A stretch of 47,558 nucleotides of DNA, from positions 1 to 47,558 of the forward strand of contig MWCI01000019.1 of the NCBI GenBank assembly GCA_002069965.1. The letters run 5' to 3'. This DNA comes from Spirochaetes bacterium ADurb.Bin218. Lineage in GTDB: Bacteria; Spirochaetota; UBA4802; UBA5550. Below, piece after piece: positions 36,189 to 44,886 of the stretch; position 1 is the first letter of the stretch; the number at the start of each line of letters is the position of its first letter. A program made the position numbers and the translations under genes. Below the pieces are notes generated by a model, which did no database searches, had not been told where the DNA came from, and saw only the letters and a program-made list of their open reading frames with translations.

Positions 36189-36893
36189 TTATTTTTTCCA
36201 CGCATAGAGAACTATGCTCTTTGGGAAAAAGTTATCAAAAAAGGATTCAACTTTTCTCATAAAATTAGACATCAAACCGAGATGTAAAAACTTATGATAG
36301 GCCTTTGTTATGGGATGATCATTATCATGCAAACCCACAACACCTCTAATTATCCACCAGATTGTATGGAATGAATGCTTAAAGCCTATGGCATAGATCT
36401 CAAGGCCATTTGCTCTCATTATATTTGCAAGATCTGAAGGATGATATTTTCGCACATGTCCACCAGGGGATGTGAAGTATTCGTAGGTTATTGCATCGTA
36501 GATTATCTCGCTTATATAAGTTGGAACAGTTATTGCAATACGTCCATTTTTTTTCAGCACCCTTGCAAGCTCAGCGCATGCCTTGAAGTCATCGTTTACA
36601 TGCTCCATAACCTCAGAGCATATTATTCGATCAAAGGTTTCATCTTTAAACGGAAGATTAAGAGCATCCCCTATATGAGTAAGAAAGCGGGACTTTTTAT
36701 GAGCTCTTCCCTGTTTTATCATGCTTGCCAGAGTGTATCTTGTTTTAAGCAGTGAGTCAAGGTCGAGATCCATGCAAAAAACCTTTGCACCACGTTGCAT
36801 AAAGGCAATGGAATGTCTGCCAAGCCCACATCCTGCATCAAGGACAACATCACCCTCTCTTACTGAAAGCTTATCAAAATCCACTGTAAGCAT
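36189..36893 (-). CDS. Class I SAM-dependent methyltransferase
   Basis: A 234-aa methyltransferase. I start at 36893 (MLTVDFDKLSV). A perfect GGGAGG lies about eight bases upstream, and relatives begin with this same MLTVDFD sequence; the earlier ATG at 36935 would overlap the upstream gene by 62 bp. Motif I is VLDAGCGLGRH (about 17-27) and the acidic ribose-binding residue lies in VFCMDLD. A central FDRIICSEVMEHV follows, then RVLKKNGRIAITVPTY. The last 60 residues differ from the minimal fold (GLHDNDHPITKAYHKFLHLG). It overlaps the end of the glycosyltransferase gene by 20 bp. With two GT4 enzymes it probably modifies a glycolipid or surface glycan. Confidence 0.9.
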   Translation of the reverse strand: MLTVDFDKLSVREGDVVLDAGCGLGRHSIAFMQRGAKVFCMDLDLDSLLKTRYTLASMIKQGRAHKKSRFLTHIGDALNLPFKDETFDRIICSEVMEHVNDDFKACAELARVLKKNGRIAITVPTYISEIIYDAITYEYFTSPGGHVRKYHPSDLANIMRANGLEIYAIGFKHSFHTIWWIIRGVVGLHDNDHPITKAYHKFLHLGLMSNFMRKVESFFDNFFPKSIVLYAWKK

Positions 36894-38118
36894 CAATAAC
36901 CTCCCTGTAAACCTTTTCCATCTCTCTGGCTGCATTTTCCCATGTAAAGACCTCAGTAATTCTTTTACGAGCAGCTTTCCCCATTTTTTTTCTTTCTTCA
37001 GGATTAAGAAGTAGATAATCTATTGCCTCAGCAAGAGAGTATGGGTCTCTTGATTTTACAACATATCCTGTTTCCATATGATTGCCCACTACCTCAGGCA
37101 AAGCTCCACCATCAGAGGCAATGAGAGGTAATTCGCAGGCCATAGCCTCAGCAGCAGGAAATCCAAAGCCTTCGTAAAGAGAAGGAGATACTGCAAGTTC
37201 ATGGCTTGCATAAAGCTCAATGAGCTTTTCCCCGGGGATCTTCCCTGTGAAGTGAATGCGATCATTAAGTCCAAATTTATCAATCCATTTTGTTACATAC
37301 ATTCTATTGGGGGCGCCGCCGTCTACAACTGTTAGGTGAAATTTGGTTTTTGTAAGAGTCATAGCCTTGAGAAGATAGACGACACCTTTTTTACGATCCT
37401 CGACATTCCCAACAAAGATCACGCTGTTAGGTTTTTTCTTTATATGAGGCAGGGGCTTAAAAAAATCCGTATCAAGACCATTGTAAACAACACTCATTTT
37501 TTCGTGCTTTACTCCAAAAGCCCTGTTGATCTCATTGGCTGCATCATGAGATACAGTGATTATGTGATCCATTCTACGAGCAACAAATCCCTGCATTATA
37601 AGGGGATAGTATAGCACTCTTTTAATCTTTAATCTAAAATCAGATGGATATTCAAACCATGTGGATCTGTCAATGGACAGAGGATGATGTATGGTAGATA
37701 TAAAAGGAATTCCAAATTGCTTTATGAGTAAAAAACCATAGCCGAGACTTTGGTTGTCATGTATAATGTCAAATTTATGAATTTTTAAAAGCTCTTTGAG
37801 CTTGAGGTATGCTCTGAATGAGAAAGTTTCAATTTCAGGAAAAATCCCAAATTTTGATGCAATAAATTCATAAAAATTTAAAGGCGAAAATGTAGCAAAG
37901 GGCTTATGAGGTTTTATATAGTTCTGCTTTATATTGAAATAGTTATGATTGCTTACATAGTGGATATGAATGCCTTCCATAGGAGGGAAGTAGGGAGGTC
38001 CCTGTATTACATGAACCTCGTGTCCAAGCTTTGCAAGCTCACGGGCTATATACATTGTGTAGATTCCCTGACCCCCACAATAGGGGTTTCCTCTATATGT
38101 AAGGAGACATATTTTCAT
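36874..38118 (-). CDS. GT4-family glycosyltransferase (second of a tandem pair)
   Basis: A 414-aa GT-B retaining glycosyltransferase. The N-terminal acceptor domain begins MKICLLTYRGNPYCGGQGIY. The C-terminal nucleotide-sugar domain carries the family 4 E-x7-E motif EGFGFPAAEAMA and a preceding VIFVGNVEDRKKG. It is clearly a paralogue of the next gene upstream (shared RGNPYCGGQGIY, HDNQSLGYG versus HDIQSLGWA, HHPL, VVYNGMD/VVYNGLD). Its ATG overlaps the upstream paralogue's stop by 4 bp (ATGA), and its end overlaps the methyltransferase start. A cytoplasmic or membrane-associated role building a glycan or glycolipid is likely; donor and acceptor are unknown. Confidence 0.93.
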   Translation of the reverse strand: MKICLLTYRGNPYCGGQGIYTMYIARELAKLGHEVHVIQGPPYFPPMEGIHIHYVSNHNYFNIKQNYIKPHKPFATFSPLNFYEFIASKFGIFPEIETFSFRAYLKLKELLKIHKFDIIHDNQSLGYGFLLIKQFGIPFISTIHHPLSIDRSTWFEYPSDFRLKIKRVLYYPLIMQGFVARRMDHIITVSHDAANEINRAFGVKHEKMSVVYNGLDTDFFKPLPHIKKKPNSVIFVGNVEDRKKGVVYLLKAMTLTKTKFHLTVVDGGAPNRMYVTKWIDKFGLNDRIHFTGKIPGEKLIELYASHELAVSPSLYEGFGFPAAEAMACELPLIASDGGALPEVVGNHMETGYVVKSRDPYSLAEAIDYLLLNPEERKKMGKAARKRITEVFTWENAAREMEKVYREVIDAYSGF

Positions 38119-39356
38119 CTTTTTCTCCTGAATTCTCTTATTACATCTTCATAGACTTTAAGTGTGTTTTTTGCAGCCACAGGCCATGAAAAGTTTTCCA
38201 CAGCTCTCCTGCGACCATTCTCTCCCATCTTTTTTCTTAGTTCACTGTCAGATAGTAGCTTGAGTATAGCATCTTTCAAGGCTATAGGATCCTTTGGAGG
38301 AACAAGGATACCGCAGTCCTCTGTTACTACCTCTTTGAGAGAACCAGCAGTGGTAACAACAACAGGGGTTTTGCAGGCCATAGCCTCAACAGCAGGAAGG
38401 CCAAAGCCTTCAAAAAGAGAAGACATTACAAGAATTGTTTTTCTGCTATAGAGGCTAACAAGGGCTTCATAGCTAAGCTTGCCTGTAAATTTAACTCTGT
38501 GACTTAGATTAAATTTTTTTATCATGTCAGCAGCAGTCATCTTTTTAGGTGGACCATCGTCAACTATTGTGAGTGTCACATCTTCTGGCAGCATGGTCAT
38601 TGCCTCAAATAGGTATATGAGTCCCTTTTTGCTGTCTTCTGTGTTGCCCACAAAGAGAAGGGCGTTTTCTTCCCTTGGTTCTCCAGTATTCTGGAAGAGA
38701 TCAACATCCATGCCATTATAAACTACAGATACTTTTTCTGGTTTAACTCCAAAGGCTTTGTTGAGTTCAGTTATACCCTCTCGAAATGAGGTGATCACCC
38801 TGTCCAATCTCTTGATGACAAAGCTCTGCATAACAAGTGGATAAAAAAGGATAGTTGTAGTTTTGTCCCATAAGCCAAAATTACCCATGAGATCCGCCTC
38901 TCTGTCTTTTGTGAGAGGATGATGCACTGTTGTCACAATTGGAATCCCATAACCCTTCATGGGGACCGTTGCCCATCCCAGGGACTGAATATCATGGATG
39001 ATGTCGTATCTTTTCTCTTTGAGAATTTTTTTTAAAGCAAAAAACGCTCTGAAAGAATAGGTCTCCATCTCCGGGAACATGTGTAATCTGGTGAGAATAT
39101 AGTCAGCAAAGTTCCATGGGGAAAAGATCCTCACAAGCTTTTCGTATGGGATATCCTTTGTTTTTATTGACCAGATATTGAGATTTTCAATTTTATATAC
39201 AGTTGCCCATTCTTCAAGAGGATCTGGATATGGGGGCCCAACCATAACATCAACCTCTACACCGAGCTTTGCAAGCTCACGGGAGAGGTTATAGATATAA
39301 ATCCCCTGGCCTCCGCAGTAGGGGTTGCCTCTGTATCCGGAAATTAAAACTCTCAT
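38115..39356 (-). CDS. GT4-family glycosyltransferase (first of a tandem pair)
   Basis: A 413-aa GT-B glycosyltransferase, paralogue of the downstream gene. It starts MRVLISGYRGNPYCGGQGIY and has the NDP-sugar-binding E-x7-E motif EGFGLPAVEAMA, preceded by LLFVGNTEDSKKG. The pair probably arose by tandem duplication and diverged, keeping the same length. It is the second gene of a four-gene operon: membrane protein (14-bp gap), this gene, its paralogue (4-bp overlap) and the methyltransferase. Two successive transfers of similar sugars would explain two linked GT4 enzymes, as in diglycosyl-lipid synthesis; that is inference. Confidence 0.93.
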   Translation of the reverse strand: MRVLISGYRGNPYCGGQGIYIYNLSRELAKLGVEVDVMVGPPYPDPLEEWATVYKIENLNIWSIKTKDIPYEKLVRIFSPWNFADYILTRLHMFPEMETYSFRAFFALKKILKEKRYDIIHDIQSLGWATVPMKGYGIPIVTTVHHPLTKDREADLMGNFGLWDKTTTILFYPLVMQSFVIKRLDRVITSFREGITELNKAFGVKPEKVSVVYNGMDVDLFQNTGEPREENALLFVGNTEDSKKGLIYLFEAMTMLPEDVTLTIVDDGPPKKMTAADMIKKFNLSHRVKFTGKLSYEALVSLYSRKTILVMSSLFEGFGLPAVEAMACKTPVVVTTAGSLKEVVTEDCGILVPPKDPIALKDAILKLLSDSELRKKMGENGRRRAVENFSWPVAAKNTLKVYEDVIREFRRKR

Positions 39357-41659: not shown

Positions 41660-41688
41660 TTGACAAAATTATGCCGATAATATATAAA
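41660..41688 (+). promoter_or_regulatory. Strong sigma70-like promoter for the LytM-like gene, overlapping a GCCGATAA box
   Basis: Perfect TTGACA (41660-41665), 17-bp spacer and TATAAA (41683-41688). Between them lies GCCGATAA (41673-41680), identical to a flagellar sigma28 -10 element, but no TAAA box is 15 bp upstream of it. The leader to the ATG is about 85 nt. Confidence 0.7.
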
Positions 41689-41780: not shown

Positions 41781-42806
41781 ATGAAAATAAATCCCTTTAA
41801 AGATACAAATCTTCAGGATCTGCACAATAGTATTAGCCAATTTGTCTCAGATCATTTTGGAGATCTTGACAATAGAATTAAAGCCTTTCTAAGGAGGGTG
41901 CACGAAAGAGGACAGGAAAGAATCACTGTCATGTTTATCCCTCACTCAGAAAAAAAGATAATTAATTTTCACATATCAATATATGTTATAGCCAGTGCTG
42001 TTTCTTTTGTTGTTATAACGCTTATTATAACATCTGTGCTTATAGTAAATCATTCCTCTACTGTAAAGGAGGTTTCTATCCTCCAGAAAGATGGTGCTGA
42101 TTCCAAAGTTCAAATTGAAATATACAAAAGAGAAATTAACAAGCTTTATGATATTTTTCAGAAATTTAAACCAGAGATAACATATCTCTATTCTCTTACT
42201 CCAGATAGCACTGTGGATTCTCTCTGGGCAAAGGGAGGCGTTGCTAATACAAATCCAGATCCTCATTCTGTTGCCACCGCCAATGGGGAAGGAACTCCAT
42301 CGGAAGAACTTCTTAATATTCAGGAAATAAGAGGTGAATTAGAGGTTACAAAGGATGTTGTTAAAAAAATAAAATCCTTTTTAAATTACCGCAAAAAGAT
42401 AATAGAAAATACCCCTTCTATATGGCCAGTGGATGGTTATATTGTGTCCCGTTTTGGCTATAGAAATTCTCCTTACACCTTTGAGACAGAGTTCAACTAT
42501 GGTATTGATATTGAATCCTTTCCAGGAGCAGAGATAAGAGCTACAGCCCCAGGAAATGTAAGTGAGATAAAATGGGATCCTGCCCTTGGACTTACAGTTT
42601 CAATAAAGCATAAGTATGGCTTCACCACTTCTTACAGCCATTGTCAGAGGGTTTCTGTAGAACCAGGACAAAAGGTTCTCAAAGGTGAGGTAATAGGCTA
42701 TGTTGGCAGGACTGGAAAAACCACAGAATATGTATGCTTCTATCAGGTGAAGATTGGAACAGAATTTGTTGATCCAATGCCCTATCTAAATCGCATTTCA
42801 AAATAA
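41781..42806 (+). CDS. Membrane-anchored LytM/M23-fold protein lacking zinc ligands
   Basis: A 341-aa protein. A cytoplasmic N-terminal part (1-62) precedes one transmembrane helix (about 66-89). A periplasmic coiled-coil region (about 92-205, interrupted by a Gly/Pro/Ser-rich stretch) leads to a LytM fold (about 215-335). In active M23 endopeptidases, zinc is held by H-x3-D and HxH. Here NYGID has Asn239 instead of the first His (Asp243 is kept), and the HLHFE stretch has become VCFYQ (318-322), so both His of HxH are lost. His287 in TSYSH remains. It should not hydrolyse peptidoglycan but may activate an amidase, like EnvC/NlpD. It converges with fliM three bases away. Confidence 0.88.
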   Translation: MKINPFKDTNLQDLHNSISQFVSDHFGDLDNRIKAFLRRVHERGQERITVMFIPHSEKKIINFHISIYVIASAVSFVVITLIITSVLIVNHSSTVKEVSILQKDGADSKVQIEIYKREINKLYDIFQKFKPEITYLYSLTPDSTVDSLWAKGGVANTNPDPHSVATANGEGTPSEELLNIQEIRGELEVTKDVVKKIKSFLNYRKKIIENTPSIWPVDGYIVSRFGYRNSPYTFETEFNYGIDIESFPGAEIRATAPGNVSEIKWDPALGLTVSIKHKYGFTTSYSHCQRVSVEPGQKVLKGEVIGYVGRTGKTTEYVCFYQVKIGTEFVDPMPYLNRISK

Positions 42807-42809
42807 ATT

Positions 42810-43835
42810 TTAAAATTCATCTTCACTTCGGCTTGATGTAAGAAGCTCATCTGGAACTTCTTCAATCCTATCACCCAGTTTAACCGCCAGTCTGTTGGAA
42901 ACAAGACCTGGAGTGCATTTGTATTTTTTTCTACCAGCTATGCGCAGGATCATATCGTCTCCTACTTTTGTATCAGGAAGCTTTATTACATCACCTGGTC
43001 TAAGGTTCAGCACTTCCTGAACAGTTACATTAACACTTCCAATCTCTGCAGTAAGTGGTAGAGTAACATTCTCCAGACGGCTTTGTATTATTTCCATGTT
43101 TTCATCAGTTATGCCCTTGCGTATACTGGAATACATGTATTGAGCAGATAGCTTTGATATTATGGGCTCAATTGATATATAGGGTATACAGAGGTTTGTC
43201 ATACCCTCAACCTCGCCAACCTTTGTCTCAAGGGTTATTAAAACAACCATGTCATTGGGAGGGACTATCTGAGCAAATTGAGGGTTTGTTTCAATGTTGC
43301 CAAGCCTTGGTCGTAAATCAATAACGTTTGACCATGCCTCACGGAGATTACCAAGTATGCGGACAATGATGCCTTCCATAACAGAAAGCTCAATATCTGT
43401 AAGTTCCCTGCTTATTTTTGTAGCCTCACCAAGTCCGCCAAAGAGCTTGTCAATAATTGTAAAAGTGATGGATGGGTCAATCTCCAGTACAGCAGAACCC
43501 TTGAGAGGATCCATGTTTATTACAGCAAGGGTTGTTGGGTTTGGTATGGATCGGATAAATTCCTCATATGTAAGCTGATCAACAGATGCAACGTGAACTC
43601 CAACAAGAGCACGGAGCTGTGCAGAAAGTGCAGTTGTAGTGAGACGGGCAAAGGTCTCATGCATCATCTGCAGAGTTCTTATGTGGTCCTTGGAAAATTT
43701 ATCAGGACGACGAAAGTCATATATCTTGACTTTTTTCTGTTCTTTGACAGCTGTATAATCTGAGGTGTCCACCTCTCCTGCTGATATTGCAGTTAACAGC
43801 GCATCTATTTCATCCTGAGAAAGTATCTCTGTCAT
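42810..43835 (-). CDS. fliM: Flagellar motor switch protein FliM
   Basis: A 341-aa C-ring component that binds CheY-P and sets rotation direction. The N-terminal CheY-binding motif is LSQDEIDALL (5-14). The middle CheC-like domain (about 45-230) contains LFGGLG and a SVMEGIIVRILGNLREAW helix. The C-terminal SpoA domain (about 255-335) has LNLRPGDVIKL and RIAGRKKYKC. Spirochaetal fliM usually sits with fliL and fliY; here it is second in a two-gene operon, its ATG overlapping the stop of an exported-protein gene by 4 bp. Downstream, the LytM-like gene converges. Confidence 0.97.
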   Translation of the reverse strand: MTEILSQDEIDALLTAISAGEVDTSDYTAVKEQKKVKIYDFRRPDKFSKDHIRTLQMMHETFARLTTTALSAQLRALVGVHVASVDQLTYEEFIRSIPNPTTLAVINMDPLKGSAVLEIDPSITFTIIDKLFGGLGEATKISRELTDIELSVMEGIIVRILGNLREAWSNVIDLRPRLGNIETNPQFAQIVPPNDMVVLITLETKVGEVEGMTNLCIPYISIEPIISKLSAQYMYSSIRKGITDENMEIIQSRLENVTLPLTAEIGSVNVTVQEVLNLRPGDVIKLPDTKVGDDMILRIAGRKKYKCTPGLVSNRLAVKLGDRIEEVPDELLTSSRSEDEF

Positions 43836-44833
43836 CTTCTTATATCCCTTATAACTAAAGCTTCCAGACCGCTTATAAGCCAGAGAAAATCGCTTTCGCT
43901 GGATTTTTCAAGTCTGTATATGTACTTAAATCGAGACTCCTTGATAAGGCCACTTCTCCTGGCCTCAACTGTAACAAAAGCAACAAGACCACTATTGTCA
44001 ATCTCTTCATTGGTAATTCTAAATTCTTTGAGATAGTCACTTTTGCGATTAATTAAATATCTGATAAAATCATTTTCAATTATTTTTTTATCTTCTTCAT
44101 CTGCTAAATCGTATTTTCGTGAAAAATCCGGATAGGAGTGAATAAATTTATCAATATTTATATATTTAATAGCCTTATCTCTGTTTCCCTCTCTTTCTGC
44201 ATTTAAAAAGAGTAGAACAATCTCTGAGGGAGAGATGTTTACTGCCTTTGGGTCCTTGGCAATAAAAGGAATATATGTAGGATCCTTTGTAACAGAGAAT
44301 GAAATTTCATTTGAGCTTGATACAACAAGGCCGCTTAGATCCGGGTCATTGAGATAGGGGAAAAAGTGCATCTTCACCCTGTATTTTTTTCCTGTTTCAA
44401 TATTGTATATTCTTCCAAGATTTTGCCTGTGAATGAAAATCTCTCCCGGTGCAAGTTTAATCTCTCTGGGCTGCATCCATGGTAAAATCTCTGATCCTTT
44501 GTGTTCAGATACAACATAAGGGGATATGAGTTTTTCACTTTTGCCTGTGGTATCATATAAAACTGGTTTAAATGTTGTATAGTCGCTTATATCTCCTCTA
44601 TCTCTATCAAAAATATCCTTTCTGCCAGAGGAGTCGTAAATTTTAAAGGAGACATGCTGGTCAGATATGTTCTTGATTATAATTTGAATTATAACCTCTT
44701 CGCTTGAGAAAAACTTATTTTTATCACTCTTGATCAGGACAGATAAAGGGACATAAGACTGCTGGCCGTAGCTTTGGTAAGATGGATATGCTATGATTGC
44801 TATAAAGTATAATAATATCAGAAATTTTTTCAT
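43832..44833 (-). CDS. Exported protein of unknown function upstream of fliM
   Basis: A 333-aa protein I do not recognise. I start at 44833 because the product then begins with a signal peptide (MKKFLILLYFIAIIAYPSYQSYG); the ATG at 44857 would only prepend eight residues without a ribosome-binding site. The mature N-terminal half (about 25-190) looks like one or two Ig-like beta-sandwiches (VPLSVLIKSDKNKFF, VIIQIIIKNISDQHVSFKI, LAPGEIFIHRQNLG). The C-terminal half (about 205-333) is a mixed, charged domain. Its stop overlaps the fliM start (ATGA). A periplasmic protein coupled to fliM might serve the periplasmic flagellum or motor, which is inference. A GCCGATAA box lies at 44887-44894 on this strand, 54 bp upstream. 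Confidence 0.75.
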   Translation of the reverse strand: MKKFLILLYFIAIIAYPSYQSYGQQSYVPLSVLIKSDKNKFFSSEEVIIQIIIKNISDQHVSFKIYDSSGRKDIFDRDRGDISDYTTFKPVLYDTTGKSEKLISPYVVSEHKGSEILPWMQPREIKLAPGEIFIHRQNLGRIYNIETGKKYRVKMHFFPYLNDPDLSGLVVSSSNEISFSVTKDPTYIPFIAKDPKAVNISPSEIVLLFLNAEREGNRDKAIKYINIDKFIHSYPDFSRKYDLADEEDKKIIENDFIRYLINRKSDYLKEFRITNEEIDNSGLVAFVTVEARRSGLIKESRFKYIYRLEKSSESDFLWLISGLEALVIRDIRR

Positions 44834-44886
44834 TATATAGTTTCCGCAAACTCTCATCAGATATTAGACTCTAAACTGTAAATATA

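Follow-up and report, generated by a model that had tools for sequence, protein, structure and literature searches.

What does a protein of the M23 peptidase fold do once its active site has gone? The question is raised by a gene at positions 41781–42806 (forward strand) of the window, the whole 47,558-nt stretch of DNA from Spirochaetes bacterium ADurb.Bin218 (contig MWCI01000019.1) that was analysed. Its product is a degenerate M23 (LytM-fold) membrane protein of 341 amino acids; together with its orthologues in the same order we call it group A. An initial reading of the letters alone, the original prediction, had described an intact gene for an envelope protein that had lost its zinc site.

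Loss of the peptidase site

The open reading frame starts with ATG and runs through 341 codons with no stop inside, as had been predicted. Residues 238–332 match the M23 profile of Pfam (PF01551) at profile positions 2–96 of 96, with 81.4 bits against a cut-off of 28.7, far above chance; the degenerate domain as a whole covers residues 212–341 (42414–42803), and comparison of the AF2 model with known structures by VIA-align gives a clear LytM fold. With residues 238–332 lying on positions 2–96 the alignment has no net gap, and the substitutions noticed at the start are confirmed: Asn239 (codon 42495–42497) replaces the first zinc-ligand His of the HxxxD motif, and Val318-Cys319-Phe320 (42732–42740) replace HxH. 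Two residues said to be retained are indeed there, the ligand Asp243 (42507–42509) and His287 of the TxYxH motif, which reads TSYSH (42639–42641). With Asn239, Asp243, His287, Val318 and Phe320 at the five key positions, the protein has the fold and the profile of an M23 peptidase and fails in its zinc-binding and catalytic residues (N239, V318 and F320).

The description of this change as loss of a zinc site is right as to the loss and needs one refinement. By comparison with LytM we take position 318, the first His of HxH, to be catalytic and not a metal ligand, the ligands presumably being 239, 243 and 320; the window gene would thus lack two of three metal ligands (239 and 320) and one catalytic His. 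A sequencing or assembly error at the active site is ruled out, since all three examined genomes of the genus read N-D-H-V-F.

Orthologues, an intact paralogue and purifying selection

A group A orthologue, mostly full-length, was found in 43 of the 46 genomes of the window's order that were searched (the genome of the window counted); those without it, G010, G012 and G037, are listed as 72, 81 and 93% complete. Among the named relatives found, 18 of 19 records are Spirochaetes assemblies, and the remaining one, a fragment, is labelled Zixiibacteriota. Alignment with spirochaete M23 proteins, which had been proposed as a check, gives the full HDHHH site in none of the 44 group A sequences examined. 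Position 239 is His in 32 of them and position 287 in 41, and five orthologues keep all three metal ligands; position 318 is other than His in all 44, so that its loss is the family-wide invariant of group A. Among the rows of its family the window's genus shows the greatest loss, three of the five key residues. One genome (G024) has a second, diverged group A copy (L075), degenerate too (HEHMY).

The genome of the window (G000, 3.03 Mb in 160 contigs) contains 12 M23 matches. One of these, at C28:21533–22510, belongs to a paralogous group, B, which is ∼33–39% identical to group A. The group B site reads HDHHH in all 18 sequences examined, that of the window's own genome among them. Group B was counted, from the matches listed, in 41 of the 46 genomes of the order, its site having been looked at in the 18 rows just mentioned; four of the five genomes in which it is not listed carry group A (G009, G029, G035 and G038).

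The M23 domain of group A is dead and under purifying selection. For the M23 part, dN/dS was 0.023–0.064 in the four pairs with dS < 1.3; two further pairs, with dS of 2.66 and 2.76, gave 0.029 and 0.007. Of the eight group A pairs, dS was saturated in two (the window's own pair included, for which pN was 0.043 versus a pS of 0.90) and near saturation in two more. The values of 0.029 and 0.081 in two unsaturated group B pairs (dS was saturated in the other two of four) are comparable with those of group A. This low dN/dS in the dead domain and its wide conservation uphold the view of the original prediction that the loss looks functional.

Promoter, upstream element and flanking genes

Upstream of the gene lies a promoter-like TTGACA-N17-TATAAA (41660–41688, forward strand), which holds a conserved TTGACA-N7-GCCGATA (41660–41679); the near-consensus promoter that had been predicted is therefore present, and conserved in relatives. 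TTGACA-17-TATAAA has two matches in the window versus 0.16 expected, and two of 100 shuffles reach two. One promoter scan missed 41660–41688, since it demands T at position 6 of the −10 element. With up to two mismatches, TTGACA-N7-GCCGATA occurs within 300 bases upstream of 25 of 42 orthologues (related rows, not independent ones) versus 0.08 expected from base shuffles. The 20-base form TTGAC-N8-GCCGATA has two matches in the window's own genome, one of them upstream of the window gene; so nearly unique and conserved an element suggests a dedicated regulator or an unusual promoter. Together with the low dN/dS, it indicates that the group A gene is maintained and, very probably, transcribed from a promoter of its own.

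The second match in the genome (L267) lies upstream of frames that by eye are STAS-like and ArsR-like. A regulon for the element was considered and rejected: there are two matches in the window's genome, one in G002 and two in G013, and the reversed control gives 0, 0 and 2. A sigma-28 promoter was rejected as well; GCCGATAA, which we take to be the −10 element of sigma-28, fits, but by eye TAAA is absent at the right distance.

The window gene and fliM, which Pfam identifies in the window, are transcribed towards each other, and in most named relatives a fliM-like frame, judged by place, strand and size, stands beside the M23 gene. At 43832–44857 on the reverse strand a protein of 341 amino acids with no Pfam match overlaps the start of fliM by four bases, and several named relatives have a frame of about the same size there. 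The three consecutive genes of 41781–44857 (M23, FliM and the unassigned protein) are each exactly 341 amino acids long, which we take as coincidence. Two tandem, overlapping GT4 glycosyltransferase paralogues occupy 36874–39356 (reverse strand).

Predicted layout and a conserved cytoplasmic hairpin

The domain is preceded by a tail and a linker, the layout of which we derive from the sequence and from an AF2 model (mean pLDDT 68 over the whole model, 18 rows). Residues 1–46 (41781–41918) would form a cytoplasmic segment with a helix predicted, at low confidence, at 11–43. Residues 47–66 (41919–41978; RITVMFIPHSEKKIINFHIS) form a predicted beta-hairpin, our proposed bactofilin-binding element, whose strands at 47–52 and 61–66 directly precede a long helix that would enter the membrane (block pLDDT 55–64). 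A transmembrane segment at residues ∼67–90 (41979–42050) belongs to this helix (67–138), and residues 91–211 (42051–42413) probably make a periplasmic helical linker (helices 67–138 and 175–210). The LytM domain is modelled confidently (block pLDDT 85–93, residues 241–330); the hairpin and the linker have low confidence, since the two AF2 alignments had 18 and 16 rows. The second of these (16 rows) was for L061, an intact and bactofilin-linked relative, for which the same layout is predicted, although not independently, as its alignment otherwise consists of group A rows.

The hairpin is the best-conserved region of group A, with a mean pairwise identity of 75% versus 63% for the M23 domain (19 rows). 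Five of the eight group A pairs have zero non-synonymous differences in it, and its dN/dS reaches a maximum of 0.068, in the window's own pair. Its sequence block also occurs in M23 proteins that other families encode beside bactofilin. Thus the cytoplasmic tail, which had been called unusual, deserves the attention drawn to it and is not odd, as its hairpin recurs in these relatives. The hairpin is also present in group B, so group B could bind bactofilin itself.

In the VIA-align comparison, which barely covered the part before residue 203, the LytM domains of EnvC (Z 22.0 and 21.6) and DipM (Z 21.7) come out on top. Many LytM domains score between 17 and 22, activators and enzymes alike.

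Bactofilin-linked M23 genes outside the order

No bactofilin gene was found beside a group A gene in the window's order. Outside this order, the M23 gene precedes an adjacent bactofilin gene in 75 of the 78 loci scanned (L124 and L134 denote the same place). In 50 of the 78 a DUF327 gene (PF03885; Pfam confirmed it in four of these loci and at the locus in the window's genome) lies at or within ∼0.8 kb after the bactofilin; in family f21 it was found at that place in none of 20 loci. The order M23-bactofilin-DUF327 recurs in many families of the phylum (L061, L124, L125, L131 and others). A literature search found nothing that joins DUF327/YaaR with bactofilin.

The state of the active site follows linkage in part of the phylum. 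In five families (f11, f21, f23, f33 and f36) all 39 bactofilin-linked loci fetched code for a degenerate M23 protein, and all 26 unlinked paralogues have an intact site; such an intact paralogue turned up in each of 14 genomes fetched for the purpose (of 28), and in nine of 11. In other families the linked M23 is intact in 32 of 32 loci by the gap rule and in three more with an over-called bactofilin start, and four unlinked copies are intact too. These numbers describe the loci fetched, which came from a selected subset of the survey, and should not be extended to the phylum; in the survey itself, 99 of 389 genomes had shown no match at 1e-24. Rows that shared the same C-terminal 150 residues entered the tally a single time. 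Nine other M23 proteins of the window's own genome (L001–L007, L009 and L011), L101 of G009 and the truncated L059 had been dropped before the tally, as had L235, which is cut, and three HDHHH rows that scored lower or were of another type than the hairpin proteins (L162, L163 and L234). A literature search that covered few subscription journals and no supplements found no degenerate bactofilin-linked M23 protein described for spirochaetes.

Adjacent M23 and bactofilin genes are known from studied spirochaetes: BB0246 of Borrelia burgdorferi lies directly upstream of the gene for the bactofilin BbbG, and an M23 gene of Leptospira biflexa adjoins that for the bactofilin LbbD (PMC13393453, PMC10945521). 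For L. biflexa a bactofilin mutant has been described. In our set one locus from a small-genome family (L231) is linked and intact.

Within the window's order the bactofilin-DUF327 pair persists with no M23 gene in the flank in 16 of 16 loci (up to 1.5 kb scanned, less at contig ends in L118 and L237). Since these pairs lack their M23 gene, the group A gene looks like their displaced M23 partner. The bactofilin of the pair in the window's genome (L118, contig C51) stands apart from the other four bactofilins of that genome in a tree, being basal and near the linked ones (supports 82–90). Upstream of it, where elsewhere the M23 gene usually stands, is a gene of the PDDEXK_9 nuclease family (L118:1927–2448, reverse strand). 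The same genome has a second M23-bactofilin pair on contig C13 (L122), with an M23 protein that is intact and of the LysM type.

Phylogenetic placement of group A

The trees place group A with the degenerate linked copies. In an unrooted tree of 91 rows, built without the five catalytic columns, a branch with an SH-aLRT of 98 has all the degenerate rows on the same side. A more careful tree of 71 rows (20 of the 91 were left out for speed and because of long branches), likewise unrooted and without the catalytic columns, joins the window's group to the degenerate linked copies with support 100/98, and residues 44–211 of the same 71 rows, which exclude the M23 domain, do so with 99/95. In an outgroup-rooted tree of 72 rows the sole degenerate linked row, L080, is sister to group A (support 92). 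A clade of A with B is rejected mildly (p-AU 0.031, 71 rows) and appears in 0% of 200 bootstrap trees made outside the M23 domain.

Cys288 and Cys319 are conserved in both group A and group B. In the linked groups Leu mostly takes their place, with frequencies of 0.92 and 0.96 among the degenerate copies and 0.50 and 0.85 among the intact ones. The sharing of both cysteines favours kinship of A and B or gene conversion, and room must be left for some exchange between the two groups or for gain in parallel; the two cysteines may form a disulphide or may be a trace of conversion.

The residues lost differ between lineages: L135–L138 keep both histidines of HxH and have lost 239 and 287, in contrast to group A, in which 239 and 287 are mostly kept and 318 is always lost. 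As no residue is lost throughout all the degenerate lineages, the simplest reading would be parallel loss in a lineage where cutting had become dispensable; the two cysteines common to A and B speak against it.

Comparison with known systems

The closest layout is that of LmdC. From its description, LmdC shares with the predicted window protein a short cytoplasmic N-terminus with a beta-hairpin, one membrane helix, a helical linker and a C-terminal M23 domain. In Hyphomonas neptunium the N-terminal peptide of LmdC (residues 1–38) binds the bactofilin BacA with a KD of ∼15 µM, and in Rhodospirillum rubrum LmdC is enriched at the inner cell curve in a BacA-dependent way, which is lost or perturbed when its cytoplasmic hairpin is altered; neighbouring bactofilin and M23 genes are reported there for 226 species (PMC10945521). 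The M23 gene adjoins the bactofilin gene in both cases, for the window protein in its relatives. The differences lie in the site and in the locus: LmdC is an active enzyme with all zinc-binding residues kept (PMC10945521), whereas in the window protein the site has gone, and within its order the gene does not adjoin a bactofilin. The LmdC layout is thus reproduced by prediction, with low confidence for the hairpin, and the hydrolase residues and the gene linkage are not.

For the periplasmic side the nearest precedent is Csd2, which is degenerate and metal-free and forms a 1:1 complex with the active Csd1 (PMC5053510). The Csd1/Csd2 locus of Helicobacter pylori also holds the bactofilin gene ccmA and belongs to a bactofilin-dependent shape system (PMC5053510, PMC9507126, PMC12468929). 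Here too a degenerate LytM homologue stands beside an active one in the same genome (B, active as judged by residues, with HDHHH in each of the 18). Csd2 keeps three of the five key residues, however, and the window protein two; the gene arrangements are not the same. Moreover, Csd2 dimerises through helical domains and has three helices after LytM, unlike the window protein, which ends right after this domain: the M23 match ends at residue 332 and the protein at 341, and after the strand 328–330 the AF2 model has only a three-residue helical turn.

EnvC, NlpD, ActS and DipM share with the window protein a dead periplasmic LytM domain. They differ in being recruited through FtsX or LysM, whereas the window protein has the conserved cytoplasmic hairpin.

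As the window protein combines the layout of LmdC without its enzyme residues or, in its own order, its linkage, and the logic of Csd2 without the post-LytM helices, we file it as an M23-fold protein that fails the residue test for a peptidase, a variant of the bactofilin-associated M23 proteins outside the named families.

A probable dead adaptor and the alternatives to it

The account that we favour, and think rather probable, is that the protein is a dead, bactofilin-coupled transmembrane adaptor of the LmdC type which positions another hydrolase, as Csd2 does for Csd1. Through its membrane-proximal hairpin the protein would attach to a filament of bactofilin, most likely of the one encoded with DUF327 on contig C51, so that the cytoplasmic side reads bactofilin position. 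The helical linker and the dead LytM domain would extend into the periplasm, where the domain may hold or switch an active wall hydrolase, most likely the intact sister M23 protein B (C28:21533–22510); as a result, wall cutting would be placed and cell curvature shaped. Several observations speak against this account. The gene is not beside a bactofilin in its own order and is convergent to fliM, and the hairpin has low model confidence. Cys288 and Cys319 are common to A and B, whose clade is rejected mildly, and four genomes carry A with no B listed. LmdC is active, the post-LytM helices of Csd1 and Csd2 are absent, and B has the hairpin too.

The original prediction had proposed an amidase activator of the EnvC/NlpD kind, a role that we now consider unlikely and that has given way to the adaptor. 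In such a protein, of the EnvC, NlpD or DipM type, the groove of the dead LytM domain would dock and switch on an amidase or lytic transglycosylase, with the tail as an anchor only. The degenerate domain suits it, as do the long, EnvC-like helical linker and the top structural matches to EnvC and DipM; dead LytM domains can act on several autolysins, as in DipM (PMC10336132), and Amidase_3 was found in 59 of 59 genomes searched (two matches in the window's genome, one above the cut-off). An Amidase_3 protein of this genome is encoded on contig C26. But structural scores do not split activators from enzymes, and the window protein reaches 45.4 of 270 bits and 24.7 of 311 bits at the curated cut-offs for EnvC and NlpD. 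Nor was the expected partner seen: the window protein has no LysM match in Pfam, and the FtsX extracellular domain was not found in the one genome searched, which is weak evidence, as the control matched only seven of 14 named genomes. An activator would also predict neither the conservation of the hairpin nor the fact that relatives are linked to bactofilin. A better fit for the role is a separate gene on contig C23 of this genome (L133:4555–5361, reverse strand). Its product, with LysM and a degenerate M23 domain, is nearest to the LIC_10271, ActS and NlpD models, below their cut-offs, and is a candidate amidase activator.

Rather less likely again is a regulator paired with the intact sister B only, the dead member of a heterodimer tuning the active member, with no part for bactofilin. 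Csd1-Csd2 provides a precedent for it (PMC5053510), A and B have layout, hairpin and both cysteines in common, and it agrees with the frequency of B in the order and with the intact unlinked paralogues of the five families. Against a strict pairing stand the five genomes with no B listed, four of them with A; the A and B genes are unlinked in the loci seen, and the helices after LytM that help to carry the Csd1/Csd2 dimer are absent.

That an alternative metal site, for instance with Cys288 or Cys319, keeps some residual or altered activity seems very improbable. Both cysteines are highly conserved in group A, and five of its orthologues retain the three metal ligands, but the His at 318 is gone in every sequence. 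Cys319, moreover, is no replacement ligand, since it is already the middle residue of the intact HCH in most B rows, which rules out a cysteine-based substitution for zinc binding.

A decaying gene on its way out, or a recent pseudogene, has almost nothing left to recommend it: the lost residues differ between lineages and in one genome of the genus the gene is broken into two frames, but in the other carriers of the order it is open and (nearly) full-length, some copies being cut by contig ends, and the low dN/dS and the conserved promoter element contradict decay.

For the dead adaptor, a wider reading is plausible, if a little more doubtful than not. In much of the spirochaetes the M23 protein linked to bactofilin would have lost its site, by residues that differ with the lineage, and the unlinked one would have stayed intact; the coupling would be mainly structural, through a dead transmembrane adaptor that recruits the hydrolase proper. 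The adaptor gene of the window's order would even have left the operon, and would have a conserved promoter of its own.

Bactofilin-M23 pairs are thought to shape cells in that the bactofilin places a wall-cutting enzyme. If the protein so placed is dead and its intact sister is encoded elsewhere in the genome, recruitment would be separated from cutting, and these spirochaetes would offer a natural test of the pair. For annotation, the site of M23 genes adjoining bactofilins should be checked before they are called peptidases. For the organisms themselves, the group A protein is a specific candidate for what joins the cytoskeleton to the wall.
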